This document shows, piece by piece, positions 4,933 to 11,935 of a DNA stretch of 32,890 nt. Within the stretch, counting starts at the first letter, position 1. Each line of letters begins with the position of its first letter. The DNA comes from a virus, in the IMG/VR virus record IMGVR_UViG_3300033153_002680, positions 1 to 32,890 of that record; one strand, given 5' to 3'. The position numbers and the translations under genes are program-made. The notes under the pieces were generated by a model. That model had not been told where the DNA came from. It worked only from the letters and a program-made list of their open reading frames with translations, and made no database searches.

Positions 4933-6393
4933 ATGGAAAAGTACAGTAAGGCTACGTTGGATAAGATGTCAAAACCTGATTTAATAAAGCGGGTAACTAA
5001 GCTTGTAGAGAGAGCCGATGGATGGTCGAACCTGTTCAACGGTATGGGGGTGGAAGGTAAGGATCCGAGAGTCGCTACAAGGTTCACACCTAACAAAATT
5101 CTGGCACAAAGCGAACTCACAGACCTATTTCGCTCCAGCGGCCTGGCTCGTAGAACGGTTGAGGTAGTTGTCAATGATATGGTAAGGGAAGGCTTTACAA
5201 TTAAGAATGATCCCGAGGGTGCTATAAAAAAGAAACTCAGGGAATTGAAATATAGAACAAATAGTAAAAGCGCTTTAACCTGGGCGGATGTTTACGGTGG
5301 ATCGGTTATTATCTTAGGTGTATCGGATGGTACTGAGGATTTCACGGAACCGCTTGACGAGGAGAGAATTGACAGTATCGACTTTCTACGGGTTTATAAC
5401 CGTTTTGAGTTGTTCTTGAATAATAGTAATTTATATGATGACATTGCTTCGGATAAATTTGGGGAGCCTGAATTATACGAAGTAAGGCCGTTGACGGGTG
5501 GAGAATCTTATGAGGTGCATGAATCCAGATTATTACGTTTTGATGGTAATCTTATCCCAGACGATTTACTACAGGAACAGGAATTCTGGAGCGATTCCGT
5601 TTATCAGTCAGTATATGACAGGCTTCGGGGTTTAGATACTACGTATGGTAATGTGGAACAAATCATTAGTGAGTTTACAATAGCTAAGTTGACAATTGAT
5701 AATCTACAGAATCAATTGGATAACGGTAAAGAAAATATGATAATGAAAAGATTACATATTCTCGATATGGCTAAAAACTTACTGAATACTATTTTACTTG
5801 ATAAAGAGGAAGAGTTTGAAAGGGTAACCGCCTCACTTGCTGGACTTGAGGAAGCCGTTAACAAACTTGAAAGGGCTTATTCAGGTGTAACCGGTATTCC
5901 ATCCACTTTACTTTTCGGAGAGAATCCGAAAGGCTTAAACGCTGGAGGAGAGGCCTCTTCACAAATCAGATTATACTACGATAATATATCGGCACGTCAG
6001 GAAGAAAAATATCAGGAACAGACAGAGCGTTTAGTTTACCTTATAATGAAATCTAAGAAAGGCCCCACGAAAGGTCAGGTAGTAGAGGACTGGGCTGTGG
6101 AATTCAACCCGCTTTGGCAGATGTCTGAAAAAGAATTAGCGGAAGTAAAGAAACTGAATGCTGAGACTGATAAGATATACTGGGAAATTGGAGCCGTTAC
6201 AGCGGATGAAATCACAATGTCCCGTTTTGTCAATGCCGGTGAATACTCCACAGACACTACCATTTCAGAATCTCATATAAAAGAAATAGAGGAACGGGAA
6301 AAAATAACAGGTAAGGCCGTTAAAGAAGGGCTTATAGTAGGCGTCAAAGAAGGTACTGAGGAAGACGAACTCAAGAATAAAAAGGATGAATAA
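4933..6393 (+). CDS. Portal protein (DUF1073 / Phage_portal_3 family)
   Basis: Predicted dodecameric portal at the capsid vertex through which DNA is packaged, 486 aa. The sequence follows the DUF1073 pattern: an N-terminal LARRTVEVVVNDMVREGF segment, WADVYGGSVIILGV in the central clip/stem region, a long helical stretch after residue 240, and VTGIPSTLLFGENPKGLNAGG near residues 325-345, which is the most diagnostic motif. The C-terminus is acidic and lysine-rich. ATG 4933 with AGAAGGAG upstream is preferred over an in-frame ATG at 4888, which lies inside the preceding gene and has a poor ribosome binding site. Confidence 0.9.
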   Translation: MEKYSKATLDKMSKPDLIKRVTKLVERADGWSNLFNGMGVEGKDPRVATRFTPNKILAQSELTDLFRSSGLARRTVEVVVNDMVREGFTIKNDPEGAIKKKLRELKYRTNSKSALTWADVYGGSVIILGVSDGTEDFTEPLDEERIDSIDFLRVYNRFELFLNNSNLYDDIASDKFGEPELYEVRPLTGGESYEVHESRLLRFDGNLIPDDLLQEQEFWSDSVYQSVYDRLRGLDTTYGNVEQIISEFTIAKLTIDNLQNQLDNGKENMIMKRLHILDMAKNLLNTILLDKEEEFERVTASLAGLEEAVNKLERAYSGVTGIPSTLLFGENPKGLNAGGEASSQIRLYYDNISARQEEKYQEQTERLVYLIMKSKKGPTKGQVVEDWAVEFNPLWQMSEKELAEVKKLNAETDKIYWEIGAVTADEITMSRFVNAGEYSTDTTISESHIKEIEEREKITGKAVKEGLIVGVKEGTEEDELKNKKDE

Positions 6394-6396
6394 AAC

Positions 6397-7368
6397 ATGC
6401 CTATAGATATCACTACATCCACAGTACGTAGGTTACGTAAGAGTAAGCGCAAGCTTAAACAGCCGGCTAATATACCTGAATGGAAACCGCCTTTACAGTG
6501 GGAAAAAGATTACATGATATACCTCACCCGCAATGTAAATCTGTGGCGTGATTCGTGTATACAGAAAGTAATTCCTTTTCTTGACGATTTAGTATTATCT
6601 TCACAGGTAGTAAGGCCGCCAGAAGCTTCAAACATTAAATCCGACTCCAGCGTTAGGGTTGACGGTTGGGTAGATCAGTTAGAGCGTATAATGATGGAGT
6701 ATGAGATTACCCTCAAGGAATTACCTACCGGCCCGGATTGGAATTTTAACGCTTCACAAGTCGGGAAAGGTGTCGATGAATGGAATAAAGACCAGTGGTA
6801 TAAAATATCTGACTCTGTTTTAAGCGTGCCTCTTATACAGTCTAACCCGTGGTTGCCGGACACTATACAATCATTCGCAAAAGAGAACGTCTCTCTCATA
6901 AGTAAACTTCAAGGTAATACTGTACGGGATATTGAGGAAGTTATAAATAGGGGCATACGTCAAGGTAAAACCGCCAAAACTATAGAACAGGAATTACTTG
7001 ACGGAACAGATTTACAAAAAGGAGTATTTCATAAAACCGAAACAAGAGCCCGTTTAATCGCACGGGACCAGGTTGACAAACTCAACGGTCAATTAACAAA
7101 CCTGAGACAGACCGAAGCCGGAATTACTCAATATAGATGGCGTACGGCAATGGATGAACGTGTCAGGAAGAAACACAAATCCATGAGCGGTAAGCTGTGT
7201 CAATGGGGTAACAGTACGGTTTATAAAAATACGCCCTTCCCTAAAGAGGAATGGAAGTTGCGTTCATCAATCGGAGGTATAAGCTTACATCCGGGACAAG
7301 ATTACCAATGTAGATGTTATGCTGAGCCGGACTTCTCAACTATAGTCGAATCCCTGGAGGATATATAA
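6397..7368 (+). CDS. Minor head protein, SPP1 gp7 / Mu gpF-like
   Basis: Head morphogenesis protein, 323 aa, encoded directly after the portal as is typical. The family domain occupies the C-terminal half: a helical REVINRGIRQGKT-like segment (here DIEEVINRGIRQGKTAKTIE), TRARLIARDQVDKLNGQLT, then YRWRTAMDERVRKKHKSMSG, and a final HPGQDYQCRCYAEP motif that closes the domain. Members are internal or portal-associated proteins made in few copies and thought to help capsid assembly or DNA ejection. Spacing from the portal is 3 bases. Confidence 0.9.
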   Translation: MPIDITTSTVRRLRKSKRKLKQPANIPEWKPPLQWEKDYMIYLTRNVNLWRDSCIQKVIPFLDDLVLSSQVVRPPEASNIKSDSSVRVDGWVDQLERIMMEYEITLKELPTGPDWNFNASQVGKGVDEWNKDQWYKISDSVLSVPLIQSNPWLPDTIQSFAKENVSLISKLQGNTVRDIEEVINRGIRQGKTAKTIEQELLDGTDLQKGVFHKTETRARLIARDQVDKLNGQLTNLRQTEAGITQYRWRTAMDERVRKKHKSMSGKLCQWGNSTVYKNTPFPKEEWKLRSSIGGISLHPGQDYQCRCYAEPDFSTIVESLEDI

Positions 7369-7369
7369 T

Positions 7370-7588
7370 ATGAAGAAAGACGCGAATTTTAAGAATCTTG
7401 ATAAGATCACCAAACTCCTCTTACTGGTAAAGAGGGTTTTATTCGCACACCTCAACATGCGTATAGGTTCCAGCGGCTTTACAGGTAAGATACACATTAC
7501 TATAAATTGTAACGCCGGAGGTATTGGTAATACGAGCGTACAAGTATCTCAGGATTTTAATGAGAAAAATATTGATGCAATGATATAA
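7370..7588 (+). CDS. Hypothetical protein, 72 aa
   Basis: Starts one base after the previous stop, with TGGAGG (7353-7358) upstream. It has a basic helical N-terminal half (KITKLLLLVKRVLFAHLNM) and a Gly/Asn-rich strand-like C-terminal half. The pattern is unrecognised; a small head-associated or accessory protein is possible from context. It is the last gene before a promoter-like sequence and a strong terminator, so it ends the first late transcription block. Confidence 0.55.
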   Translation: MKKDANFKNLDKITKLLLLVKRVLFAHLNMRIGSSGFTGKIHITINCNAGGIGNTSVQVSQDFNEKNIDAMI

Positions 7589-7589
7589 T
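7581..7589 (+). promoter_or_regulatory. Candidate extended -10 promoter
   Basis: TGATATAAT is an exact extended -10 match (TGnTATAAT) that overlaps the stop codon of the preceding gene. No good -35 box is at the expected distance, which extended -10 promoters tolerate. Transcription would start near 7596 and meet the terminator at 7669-7721. TACGGTT occurs three times downstream (7616, 7625, 7656). This is based on sequence match only. Confidence 0.3.
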
Positions 7590-7668
7590 TGTGTTATATT
7601 GAAATTAACAGGACTTACGGTTTATACGGTTTACTTGATACACCTTTCAAATGTTTACGGTTAGTATT

Positions 7669-7721
7669 AAGCCCGGGGAAATCACTGCTTAAAGGTGGTG
7701 ATTCTTCCCTGGGCTTTTTTT
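7669..7721 (+). terminator. Strong rho-independent terminator inside the head operon
   Basis: AAGCCCGGGGA plus ATCAC (7669-7685) pairs with GTGAT plus TTCCCTGGGCTT (7698-7716) with one wobble and a small bulge, followed by seven or more T residues. This is the most convincing terminator in the window and it lies between the minor head protein and the next structural genes. Downstream genes therefore need antitermination, read-through or their own promoter. Confidence 0.85.
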
Positions 7722-7752
7722 ATTTGTCAAGCACTTCACAAAAGAGAAAATA

Positions 7753-8319
7753 ATGCAGACTAAATATAGAGGTAAGCCAGCACACGACGAATTTTCAGGC
7801 GCTTCACGTATGATAGGCGAAGTGTCAAGTAATATCTACGAAGGTTTAGTGTATAAAGCTTCCGGCGCATCTTTCGCTATCGCTGCCGGGGCTCACGCTG
7901 AATTTGTGTTACGTACGCCCGCCGCTCCAACACTTATACAGATCTTGGGCGCTATTCTTACCGGTCAAGGTAATCCGTGGAGGATTGAGCTTAGGGAGGA
8001 TGTAGTTGGGACACTCAACCCAGAAATAGTCGGAGCATTTAAAAATCTTAACAGGTCTTCTATTCTATCAACCAACTTAACCGTTTACGATAACGCAACT
8101 ATAACAGATGACGGGCTTTTACTTGACGAGGGAGATTTCGGAGGCACTGCCGGTCAAGGCAGTAACGCCGGAGATATTGGCGGCGGTTTAATGTTTTTCG
8201 GTTGGATGTTAAAACCGGATTCAAATTATTCTATAAGAGCTATAAATAATACCGGCACATTAGCGACGTTAGGTATTGATTTAGTAATTAGAGAATCTAC
8301 CTCACCTCAAGGGAGTTAA
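7753..8319 (+). CDS. Putative virion structural protein, 188 aa
   Basis: Not assigned to a family. It is Gly/Ala/Thr-rich with a beta-strand-rich look (SSNIYEGLVYKASG, AHAEFVLRTP, YSIRAINNTG), low in charge and without membrane segments, which fits a capsid decoration or minor virion protein. It starts at ATG 7753 with AAAAGAGAAA upstream and is coupled to a second unknown structural gene 5 bases downstream. It lies between minor head protein and protease, a position often used for head decoration or fibre proteins. The role is inference. Confidence 0.6.
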   Translation: MQTKYRGKPAHDEFSGASRMIGEVSSNIYEGLVYKASGASFAIAAGAHAEFVLRTPAAPTLIQILGAILTGQGNPWRIELREDVVGTLNPEIVGAFKNLNRSSILSTNLTVYDNATITDDGLLLDEGDFGGTAGQGSNAGDIGGGLMFFGWMLKPDSNYSIRAINNTGTLATLGIDLVIRESTSPQGS

Positions 8320-8323
8320 TAAA

Positions 8324-9100
8324 ATGCCATTGACGAAACAAACATACACTCAAAACGCTTTACCCACTTTCTGGCAACCTGTGAGTAGGGAAACGTTTAC
8401 AACTACGTTCAATCGCGTAATAGGTGCTCCTAAGACGTTGTCAACGGATGCGGTACTTGATACGTATATAGTAAACCTTAGTGCGGGACATGCCTTCGTA
8501 GCTAATGATATACTATTCATAGCACAAGACGGTAATATCTATCAAGCCGAAGTCTTATCGGTAAACGTAAACGCATTGACAATGGACACACCGTTGAATT
8601 TCCCGTACCTAACCGCTCCAGGCGTTGAAGGTCAGGCAACTACAGTATTTAAGATAGAAAATAATCTGGCAGTAAATGGGTCAGCTACCCCGCAGAAGTT
8701 TGAAGTGTCCGCACCCGGGGATCATGTATGGGCTGTAACACGCATGTTCGTTACAATGTTGACAGATGGAGCACCTGATGATGGCCTTTTCGGTGATTTG
8801 GACGCCTTAACAAGAGGCGTAATATTCAGAATACTTAACGGCCGGATATACAATAAAGGTAACTTCAAAGATAATGGCGATATAGCCGCGATATGTTATG
8901 ATTTAACTTACTCACAGAGATCCGGGCCTCACGGTAGTCATGGATTACGTGCTCGTGTATCTTTCGCCAGCGCCGGGAAATCCGGTAACGCAATTATACT
9001 TGATGGAGGTAAAAACGAAAAAGCTGAGGTTATAGTACAAGATGATTTACTCAACCTTGTTGAATTTAAAATAGCTTTACAAGGCGTAGTATTAAAATAA
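8324..9100 (+). CDS. Putative virion structural protein, 258 aa
   Basis: Unrecognised. Strand-rich and Gly/Asn-rich, with a short beta-barrel-like segment near residues 48-75 (LSAGHAFVANDILFIAQDGNIYQAEVLSV, broken here as a paraphrase of alternating hydrophobics), resembling ligand- or particle-binding modules of virion proteins. The second half contains GLRARVSFASAGKSGNAIILDGG-type turns and ends in FKIALQGVVLK. It follows its neighbour closely and probably acts with it. A head-associated structural role is the best guess from context. Confidence 0.6.
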   Translation: MPLTKQTYTQNALPTFWQPVSRETFTTTFNRVIGAPKTLSTDAVLDTYIVNLSAGHAFVANDILFIAQDGNIYQAEVLSVNVNALTMDTPLNFPYLTAPGVEGQATTVFKIENNLAVNGSATPQKFEVSAPGDHVWAVTRMFVTMLTDGAPDDGLFGDLDALTRGVIFRILNGRIYNKGNFKDNGDIAAICYDLTYSQRSGPHGSHGLRARVSFASAGKSGNAIILDGGKNEKAEVIVQDDLLNLVEFKIALQGVVLK

Positions 9101-9109
9101 GGGAAACAT

Positions 9110-10330
9110 ATGTCAAACATAATTAAGAACGTTTACAGATGTGACGAAATGTTGGAAGATATTTATCAGATAGACGACGGTATCGAATTTGTAAAGGGTA
9201 GCGCAACCCGTACAGATGAAGGCTATATTAAAGGTGTCGCGCCTGTCGCTAAAATCGGCATTTTACGCTATAGACTACCGAATGGGGATATACGTAGGGA
9301 ACTCGTAAACGCGGACACTTTATTTAATTCCGATAGTATGAAAACTTTGGAAATGAAGCCTTTCACTAATTTACACCCTAAAGAGGTTTTACTTGATAAT
9401 AGAACAGTTAAGCGTAGAAAGATAGGCACTACCGGAGAAACTGTAAAACAAGACGGTGAGCATTTAATGGTGTCGTATGTTATTATGGATAAAGATGCTA
9501 TAGACTCTATTGATTTAGGGAGAAAACAACTTTCACCCGGATATAGATGCGATTTACTTTTAGAGTCTGGCAATCTTGACGGGGAAGACTATGACGCTAT
9601 ACAAAAAAGAAGACGCTACAATCACGTTGCCTTATGTGATAATGCTCGCGGTGGATCTTCTTTACAAATAAATATAGATCACTGTGATGGTTTCGAAAGT
9701 GATGAAAATTTTACATATAATTCTTTAACAACTAAAAAGGAGAAAATCATGCCAAAAATTAACATCGACGGTATTGATTATGAAGCGTCTCAGGAAGTTA
9801 TTAATTCCCATAAAAAACTGGCTACCAAAGTCACTTCTTTACAGGGGAAAATTGACGCGCACACTGACGGCGTTTCCAGCGTAACCGCTGAACGTGATAA
9901 CCTACAAACAAAGGTAGACGGCTATGAAAAAGAAATGCCCGGAAAAATCAGAGACGGCATTAAAAACAGAATCCGTCTTGAAAGACTCGCGGAAGTCGTG
10001 CTCGATTCAAAGGATCTCGACAAGCTCGACAGCCTGGAAAACATCGACCTTAAGAAGAAAATTATCGTAGCCTCTTACCCTGATTCTACTATCAAGCTTG
10101 ACGATAGAGATGAAGCTTATTTGGATGTACGGATTGACGGCGTTCTCGACGGCTTGACAGAAAAGAAAAAAGAAGCTGTTAACAGTCAACGTCAAATTTC
10201 AGCTAAAAAATTTGATGAAAAGAAACGGGACGAGAAAGACGAAACTAAATCCCGTAACGATATGATTGACAGTCTGGAAGAAGGCTGGAAGACAGACCTT
10301 GACGACTTATATTCCAAAAAGAAAAAATAA
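9110..10330 (+). CDS. Prohead protease-scaffold fusion (DUF2213)
   Basis: Predicted capsid maturation protease fused to a scaffold, 406 aa. The N-terminal ~190 residues match the DUF2213 phage protease pattern: FTNLHP with candidate catalytic His89, GTTGETV and DGEHLMVSYVIMDKDAIDSI leading to QLSPGY with candidate nucleophile Ser142. The C-terminal ~190 residues are charged, helical and coiled-coil-like, ending in a poly-Lys tail typical of scaffolds that bind capsid protein. An internal in-frame start with a strong ribosome binding site lies at the domain junction (see separate entry). Upstream of the cement and major capsid genes, as expected. Confidence 0.85.
   Translation: MSNIIKNVYRCDEMLEDIYQIDDGIEFVKGSATRTDEGYIKGVAPVAKIGILRYRLPNGDIRRELVNADTLFNSDSMKTLEMKPFTNLHPKEVLLDNRTVKRRKIGTTGETVKQDGEHLMVSYVIMDKDAIDSIDLGRKQLSPGYRCDLLLESGNLDGEDYDAIQKRRRYNHVALCDNARGGSSLQINIDHCDGFESDENFTYNSLTTKKEKIMPKINIDGIDYEASQEVINSHKKLATKVTSLQGKIDAHTDGVSSVTAERDNLQTKVDGYEKEMPGKIRDGIKNRIRLERLAEVVLDSKDLDKLDSLENIDLKKKIIVASYPDSTIKLDDRDEAYLDVRIDGVLDGLTEKKKEAVNSQRQISAKKFDEKKRDEKDETKSRNDMIDSLEEGWKTDLDDLYSKKKK
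9749..10330 (+). CDS. Nested scaffold protein from internal start
   Basis: ATG 9749-9751 is in frame with the protease (codon 214) and is preceded by AAAAAGGAGAAAATC, as good a ribosome binding site as any in the window. It would give a separate 193-aa scaffold: helical, highly charged, coiled-coil heptads around residues 20-65, and a Lys-rich C-terminus. The arrangement parallels lambda C/Nu3, where the scaffold is translated from within the protease gene. From about 9750 the codons shift by eye towards C-ending ones (AAC, ATC, GAC, CTC), as in the capsid gene, consistent with high expression. Confidence 0.75.
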   Translation: MPKINIDGIDYEASQEVINSHKKLATKVTSLQGKIDAHTDGVSSVTAERDNLQTKVDGYEKEMPGKIRDGIKNRIRLERLAEVVLDSKDLDKLDSLENIDLKKKIIVASYPDSTIKLDDRDEAYLDVRIDGVLDGLTEKKKEAVNSQRQISAKKFDEKKRDEKDETKSRNDMIDSLEEGWKTDLDDLYSKKKK

Positions 10331-10404
10331 AGCGGTTTCAGTTATACAGTAGAGTAGTAAAAACAATTCATAAGTTTTAATAACATTTACAGGAGAGAAT
10401 TTTT

Positions 10405-10899
10405 ATGTCTCAAACATCCTACAACTTAAATAGCCCGGCTTTACAGTTGGGTATGAAACTTGATGCCGCTTTTGATCTTGTAGAAGGATCATGGGCCGCT
10501 CAAGAGGTACTACCTATAGGGCGTGTAGTGCGTAAGACTGTCGGGATCGATAATGGGGTAGAATTACCCGCTGTCGGTACTGTGGCGGCTGACCTTATTG
10601 GTGCGGTTATTTCAGAAGCAAGTCTTATCGCGGACGTCGACGGTTTAGTAGCCTATGACAAAAACGCGCCTGTCAACGTAATGCGTGACGGGAAAATGGT
10701 TCCTTGGTGTGAAACTGTTTTTGATCCTGATACAGACACAGTACATGTACGTATCGTGGCCGGCGGAGCCGGTGAACTTGTCGGACAAATAAGAAACGAC
10801 GTTGACGGTGGAAACGCTATCGCATGGCCTAACGCTACAGTACGTAATACACTGGCAAGCGCTGGTCTGGCTGAAATGTCAATCCTTTCTAAACCGTAA
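10405..10899 (+). CDS. Head cement/decoration protein
   Basis: 164 aa, encoded just before the major capsid gene. The pattern (PALQLGMKLDAA...IGRVVRKTVG...LIGAVISEAS...YDKNAPVNVMRDGKMVPWCE) is that of small structural cement proteins that sit on the capsid surface and stabilise it. It is Gly/Ala/Val-rich with beta-strand periodicity and no membrane segment. ATG 10405 has AGGAGAG upstream. Assignment to the cement family is by pattern and gene order, not by search. Confidence 0.7.
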   Translation: MSQTSYNLNSPALQLGMKLDAAFDLVEGSWAAQEVLPIGRVVRKTVGIDNGVELPAVGTVAADLIGAVISEASLIADVDGLVAYDKNAPVNVMRDGKMVPWCETVFDPDTDTVHVRIVAGGAGELVGQIRNDVDGGNAIAWPNATVRNTLASAGLAEMSILSKP

Positions 10900-10990: not shown

Positions 10991-11935
10991 ATGCCTGGAA
11001 AAATTATACAGTGTGTCTGCTTAGACGCAAACGAGGCAGTTTTCTTCACCAGAGAACTCGAATTTGTCAAGCGTCAAACATATGATATCCGATACCCGGA
11101 ATATCTTGCAACAATCTTGATGCCTGTTGACACAAGCGCGGGCCCCGGTGCTGAAGCTATTGTATACCATCAATTCGACGGTGTAGGAACCATGAAACTT
11201 ATGGCTTCATACGGTGACGACGCTCCCCGCTCAGATGTCAACGGGAAAGAATTCATTGGTCCCATTAAGCCTATTCGCGGTTCTTACGGTTATTCTGTAC
11301 AGGATATACGTAATGCACAGTTCGCAAACCGTCCATTAAAAACTATGAAAGCTTCTAACGCCCGCCGGGTGTATGAGCAGACACTGAATGACTGGGCTTG
11401 GTTCGCGGACGGTTCATCTAAGTATGGTGGAGTTTATGGATTCCTTTACAATCCGAACATTACGAAATCTCCAGCTCCTACAGGTGGTTGGACTGGCGGC
11501 GCTACACCTGACCAGATTATCGCGGATGTCGATTTCGCTATTAACAACATTGTAAAAGTTACTCTGAGAACAGAGAAAGCTGACACTGTTCTTATCAGTA
11601 CTGAAGGGTATTCCTATATAGCAACTACTCCCCGTTCAGGAACAAGTGATACTACCATACTTGAATTCCTCCGGAGAGTACACCCAGGCGTCTCTTTCGT
11701 ACAAGTCAATGAACTTGCTGACGTTGCTCCAGCGCCTTCAGGTGCGGCTGGCCCACTGAATTTACTTATTGCGTACAAACGCGCTTCTGATAAATTCGAA
11801 CTCGCAGTACCGCAGCCGTTTGAGCAGTTTCCTCCACAGGAACGTAATATGGAATTCGTTATTAATACTCATGCCCGTATCGGCGGCGTGTTGTATTACT
11901 ACCCTCTTTCTTGTCATATCGTAGAGGGAATATAG
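10991..11935 (+). CDS. Major capsid protein (DUF2184 family)
   Basis: HK97-fold major head protein, 314 aa. Diagnostic stretches include FTRELEFVKRQTYDIRYPEY (an N-arm/E-loop-like region), YGDDAPRSDVNGKE, SYGYSVQDIRNAQ, the A-domain segment ADTVLISTEGYSYIATTP, and FEQFPPQERNMEFVINTHAR near the C-terminus. It follows protease/scaffold and cement genes as expected. Codon use is visibly enriched in C-ending codons relative to neighbours, which fits the most abundant virion protein. ATG 10991 has AAGGAGAAAG upstream. A hairpin follows the stop. Confidence 0.9.
   Translation: MPGKIIQCVCLDANEAVFFTRELEFVKRQTYDIRYPEYLATILMPVDTSAGPGAEAIVYHQFDGVGTMKLMASYGDDAPRSDVNGKEFIGPIKPIRGSYGYSVQDIRNAQFANRPLKTMKASNARRVYEQTLNDWAWFADGSSKYGGVYGFLYNPNITKSPAPTGGWTGGATPDQIIADVDFAINNIVKVTLRTEKADTVLISTEGYSYIATTPRSGTSDTTILEFLRRVHPGVSFVQVNELADVAPAPSGAAGPLNLLIAYKRASDKFELAVPQPFEQFPPQERNMEFVINTHARIGGVLYYYPLSCHIVEGI

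Follow-up and report, generated by a model that had tools for sequence, protein, structure and literature searches.

A predicted nested in-frame scaffold gene inside the DUF2213 protease gene of an IMG/VR virus and its relatives

From the virus record IMGVR_UViG_3300033153_002680 we analyzed a stretch of 32,890 nucleotides, called the window in the following. The protease gene of its head module in all likelihood yields two co-terminal proteins from one mRNA, a protease-scaffold fusion of 406 aa and an independently initiated free scaffold of 193 aa. From the comparison of related sequences, the nested start is real and conserved, and it is very probably functional. The features concerned are as follows.

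9110-10330, + strand: protease-scaffold fusion gene, 406 aa (DUF2213 and phrog_530 matches)
9200-9679, + strand: predicted assemblin-type protease domain, residues 31-190, with the invariant residues His89, Ser142 and His172 (AlphaFold2, fold matches, alignment)
9683-9742, + strand: disordered linker, residues 192-211, whose DNA also holds the nested ribosome binding site (pLDDT <50)
9734-9742, + strand: nested ribosome binding site AAAAAGGAG (sequence; anti-SD energy -8.7 kcal/mol)
9749-10330, + strand: predicted nested in-frame scaffold gene, 193 aa, ATG at 9749 (conservation, codon-usage step, long-helix fold from residue 228)
10405-10899, + strand: cement (decoration) protein gene (Phage_cement PF22758, E=1.2e-11)
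10991-11935, + strand: major capsid protein (MCP) gene of the PF09950 family, the expected scaffold partner (PF09950, E=1.8e-44; phrog_264)

The Pfam scan matched residues 34-188 of the 406-aa product to DUF2213 (E=1.4e-31), and a PF09979 score of 110.2 bits against a curated cut-off of 22 places the protein in this family. The PHROGs family phrog_530, "head maturation protease", covers residues 18-397 (E=2.9e-71). PF10123, the family of Mu I, is absent from the fusion, for which Pfam shows just DUF2213 and a sub-threshold coiled-coil match; likewise, the scan gave no Peptidase_S49 match (lambda C type) at E up to 0.1. Ordered by their starts, the genes of the head module are the large terminase (3160), portal (4888), Mu F-like (6397), protease-scaffold (9110), cement (10405) and MCP (10991) genes, which by their sequence matches is a normal arrangement. 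Directly upstream of the protease gene lies a gene of 258 aa (8324-9100) with a strong Shine-Dalgarno sequence (SD), whose product matches no Pfam or PHROGs family.

Codon 214 of the open reading frame 9110-10330 is an in-frame ATG at 9749, from which 193 codons remain up to the shared stop codon. Upstream of it lies AAAAAGGAG (9734-9742), separated from the ATG by the 6-nt spacer AAAATC. The duplex energy of this site with the anti-SD is -8.7 kcal/mol, the strongest value among the 123 internal in-frame ATGs of the 30 genes of the window, compared with -8.5 kcal/mol for the MCP gene and -5.3 kcal/mol for the protease's own start. The raw mRNA folding energy is also weakest at the nested start (-4.9 versus about -10 kcal/mol 90 nt upstream). 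However, synonymous shuffles reproduce this value (z 0.1), and since the amino-acid content explains the low structure, mRNA folding was not counted as evidence. As expected for a nested pair, the protease-scaffold junction thus holds an in-frame start with its ribosome binding site, and the two starts share one stop codon.

The position of this start was compared with an AlphaFold2 model, built on 52 sequences from the window and the scan loci only. The protease domain (residues 31-190) is modelled confidently with a pLDDT of about 96. It is followed by the disordered linker (192-211) and, further downstream, by a short hairpin (216-225) and then a series of helices, the first of which spans 70 residues (228-297). 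Because protease, disordered linker and long-helix region follow each other in this way, Met214 starts just at the scaffold domain. Sequence and model therefore bear out the earlier note, which had placed a ribosome binding site and ATG at codon 214, at the junction of protease and scaffold. The closest solved fold to the protease domain is T4 gp21 (Z 12.5, rmsd 2.7 over 139 residues, VIA-align), and the herpesvirus proteases (assemblins) reach Z 6-9; Foldseek with the whole fusion gave weak herpesvirus protease matches only. Across 64 sequences His89, Ser142 and His172 do not vary, and the order His-Ser-His is the catalytic order of the herpesvirus enzymes. According to the model, the DUF2213 domain is a predicted protease of assemblin-type fold with conserved His, Ser and His. 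The fold of the C-terminal half, the gene order and the interpretation of phage Pa193 discussed below point to a scaffold role for this half.

Single-protein scans of viral and genome contigs gave only one near relative, whose sequence occurs in IMG/VR as a contig and also in a Falkowbacteria MAG. Its DNA is 96.7% identical to the window over the aligned contig, and its 24 substitutions in the fusion gene leave the protein unchanged. A stretch free of substitutions, 9623-9843, includes the nested ribosome binding site and ATG; taken alone, this gap is only suggestive. The MAG sequence (L003, QMNH01000066.1) is a 5.75-kb contig binned in Candidatus Falkowbacteria, which aligns to window positions 6307-10882, carries about 200 additional bases at window position 6393 and is identical to IMG/VR 3300013101_000606. 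Falkowbacteria may be the host, or the contig may be misbinned.

Because these scans returned a single near-identical sister, an alignment-based scan of viral contigs and named phages was used, and the relatives were thinned to 68 with <80% mutual identity. The junction, defined as the region from the end of the protease core to the scaffold motif (window residues 184-220; mean 35 codons), is poorly conserved as protein. Nevertheless, 67 of the 68 non-redundant relatives have an in-frame ATG in it, and the only relative that lacks one (L046) has GGAG and then an in-frame GTG at the equivalent place. An SD of -5 kcal/mol or stronger precedes the junction ATG in 91% of the 67. Among 411 other in-frame ATGs of these genes the proportion is 14%, and it is likewise 14% among 93 ATGs that lie out of frame in the junction. 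The earlier note had made its claim depend on the conservation of these two elements in related phages, and this they show. After synonymous-codon shuffling the mean SD energy is -5.43 (sd of means 0.26) compared with -7.30 observed, and none of 200 shuffle sets was as strong. About 57% of the shuffles likewise attain -5 kcal/mol, so the SD is partly due to the Lys/Glu/Gly-rich linker itself. Since picking the best of several ATGs inflates such figures, the analysis was repeated with the single ATG nearest to the scaffold motif. This ATG is the strongest internal one in 45 of 67 genes, where 12.5 would be expected; with the relatives thinned to 50% identity, the same holds for 30 of 43 (8.4 expected). 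The nested SD exceeds the protease's own SD in 54 of 66 relatives. Which codons and residues form it differs from one relative to another, and the linker varies freely. One relative (L034:2950-4437) has about 100 additional residues inserted in the linker and retains the SD and ATG downstream of them. The nested start is conserved beyond what the protein sequence requires.

Further named phages were inspected for the same elements. All 15 have a junction ATG and 13 of them a recognisable SD, namely Pseudomonas phages PB1, Banzai and KLEP17-4, Serratia phage SMP, Escherichia phages FEC19, SRT8 and Rtp, Burkholderia phage Bm1, Vibrio phages 1.263.A and Rostov M3, Klebsiella phage Call, Pantoea phage AAS23 and Bordetella phage IFTN8. 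In Rtp the nested start corresponds to Met210. The SD is weak or absent in the other two, one Lactobacillus phage and one cyanobacterial phage. In the latter, Aphanizomenon phage CL131 (L099:2168-3631), the junction ATG lies at codon 186 without SD (+1.6 kcal/mol). Cyanobacteria make little use of SDs, which fits this finding.

Codon usage also changes at the nested start. In the window, the third-position ratio C/(C+T) rises from 0.33 before to 0.50 after 9749 (p=0.011, and again p=0.011 when stratified by codon box). The shift towards C-ending codons claimed by the earlier note is thus present but modest. Its likeness to the capsid gene is weak here, because the MCP gene has a ratio of 0.40, lies between both halves and differs significantly from neither; the shift in MCP-likeness in the window alone is small (+0.03). 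This likeness is convincing only family-wide: in 51 of the 56 relatives with a findable capsid gene, the part behind the nested start has the higher amino-acid-stratified likeness to capsid codon usage (p=3.7e-10). The change point that fits best falls 0 to 20 codons after the ATG, with a dip in the linker just before. Control genes of the same loci, compared between first and second half, show no step (29 of 56 positive; comparison p=4e-9). Such a step is the trace expected from extra translation of the 3' part of the gene.

These data were weighed against other explanations of the junction. If only the fusion were made, the Met and the Lys/Glu/Gly-rich linker could be conserved for the sake of the protein, for example as a cleavage site or a domain cap, with an incidental SD. 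The composition of the linker speaks for this, as it gives fairly strong SDs by itself in synonymous shuffles. However, the observed SDs are stronger than all 200 shuffle sets, within a freely varying linker they arise from different codons and residues in each relative, and the codon-usage step begins at the nested ATG, so that production of the fusion alone seems improbable. Still less probable is a free scaffold that originates from autoproteolysis of the fusion near the linker instead of internal initiation. A protease fold with invariant His-Ser-His and a disordered, easily cleaved linker would suit such a cut, which leaves the conserved ATG, the SD and the codon step unexplained and would yield protease and scaffold in equal amounts. 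Autoproteolysis might operate alongside internal initiation.

As in the case of herpesvirus UL26.5, the scaffold could also have a transcript of its own, here started from a promoter within the protease gene. A sigma-70-like match of 10 of 12 positions indeed ends at 9721, 28 nt 5' of the ATG. Such matches are as frequent as in shuffled sequences (5 found, mean 4.5), and without an excess over shuffles the internal promoter was rejected. It is also unneeded if the late operon mRNA spans the gene, and the start codon would be the same anyway; we regard this origin as extremely improbable.

Internal initiation on a shared mRNA is therefore the preferred reading, and its working can be proposed as follows. 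Ribosomes starting at 9110 would produce the 406-aa protease-scaffold fusion, while ribosomes initiating separately at 9749, with the stronger SD, would produce the 193-aa scaffold without protease. Of the two products the free scaffold would predominate and form an internal core for the assembly of the capsid protein. Few copies of the protease would be carried into the procapsid by the shared C-terminal scaffold half, and once inside the protease may degrade or trim the scaffold. A nested gene would be a simple answer to the question of how the scaffold-to-protease ratio is set in DUF2213 phages.

None of 25 annotated DUF2213 regions that were opened lists a nested CDS, in agreement with the earlier note that nested scaffolds are little noted in annotation, and among the matches listed no feature name suggests a nested gene. 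Searches of open-access papers turned up no report of a nested scaffold in the DUF2213 family. A "scaffolding protein" annotated in Hafnia phage Pocis76 (ORF34, L011:4142-4978) was considered as a rival scaffold and rejected; it has a cement-like phrog_1989 match and Ig-like domains. The fusion protein has matches in more than 1,300 sequenced phage records, and its Pa193 homologue in about 300 records of Pbunavirus type. Provided that the nested gene is real, these records lack an annotated capsid scaffold gene, and the entry "head maturation protease" conceals two products. The codon-usage step offers a means to seek other hidden in-frame genes from sequence only. A Tn-seq study of Burkholderia cenocepacia found insertions in BCAM1066 solely in the C-terminal part and on this ground named DUF2213 a putative essential bacterial domain (PMC8770471). 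Given the role of the family, BCAM1066 may be a prophage protease-scaffold gene.

Several known systems resemble the gene described here. In phage lambda, the protease gene C contains the nested in-frame scaffold gene Nu3. Lambda C is an S49-type (SppA-like) protease and in this differs from the window protease with its assemblin-type fold. The parallel to C/Nu3 drawn by the earlier note holds as an analogy, but the closest documented precedent is Mu I/Z, which is recorded as nested in the Mu record. There, the scaffold gene Z starts in-frame inside the protease gene I and both end at the same stop codon (annotated, 361 and 183 aa). Used as a positive control for the SD scoring, Z reached -7.4 and I -2.0, so that in Mu, as in the window gene, the outer SD is weak and the nested SD strong. 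Mu I differs in belonging to PF10123, and similarity to the DUF2213 fusion was not detected by sequence, including profile comparison. The strategy itself is thus known, and the DUF2213 nested scaffold is a new, family-wide instance of it, not a new kind of system. For phage PaMx73, too, an internal start of this sort has been proposed (PMC4378225).

T4 gp21, despite being the nearest fold, shares only 8% sequence identity with the window protease. In T4 the scaffold proteins have separate genes. Herpesvirus UL26/UL26.5 also combines an assemblin-type protease fused to a scaffold with a separate co-terminal scaffold. UL26.5 is made from its own transcript, in contrast to the window gene with its predicted internal ribosome binding site; the nested start would extend this parallel to the DUF2213 phages. 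Another comparison is provided by gp24 of the Pbunavirus Pa193 (PDB 9B40), a DUF2213 protease-scaffold homologue, which has a longer scaffold (about 283 aa) and another C-terminal part. The deposited structure names it a putative scaffolding protein. The authors observed its residues 286-326 at the five-fold vertices of the mature capsid and interpreted them as a putative scaffold; they were unable to say whether gp24 is cleaved, and their paper makes no mention of a nested start or of a protease (0 occurrences) (PMC11042391). In PB1 and Banzai (L094/L095), close relatives of Pa193, the junction ATG with a GAGG SD lies at codon 182/195, which locates the 286-326 fragment within the predicted nested product. 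The annotated start of the PB1 gene lies 13 codons downstream of that of Banzai, and neither start has an SD. With the nested gene predicted, the question of gp24 cleavage becomes directly testable. We consider it more probable than not that a separately initiated nested scaffold is ancestral and near-universal in the DUF2213/DUF2184 head module (T1-like phages, Pbunavirus, Jedunavirus, marine Vibrio phages and many uncultured phages), as the internal-RBS counterpart of UL26/UL26.5, and that gp24 at the Pa193 vertices is the free nested product and not a remnant of the fusion.
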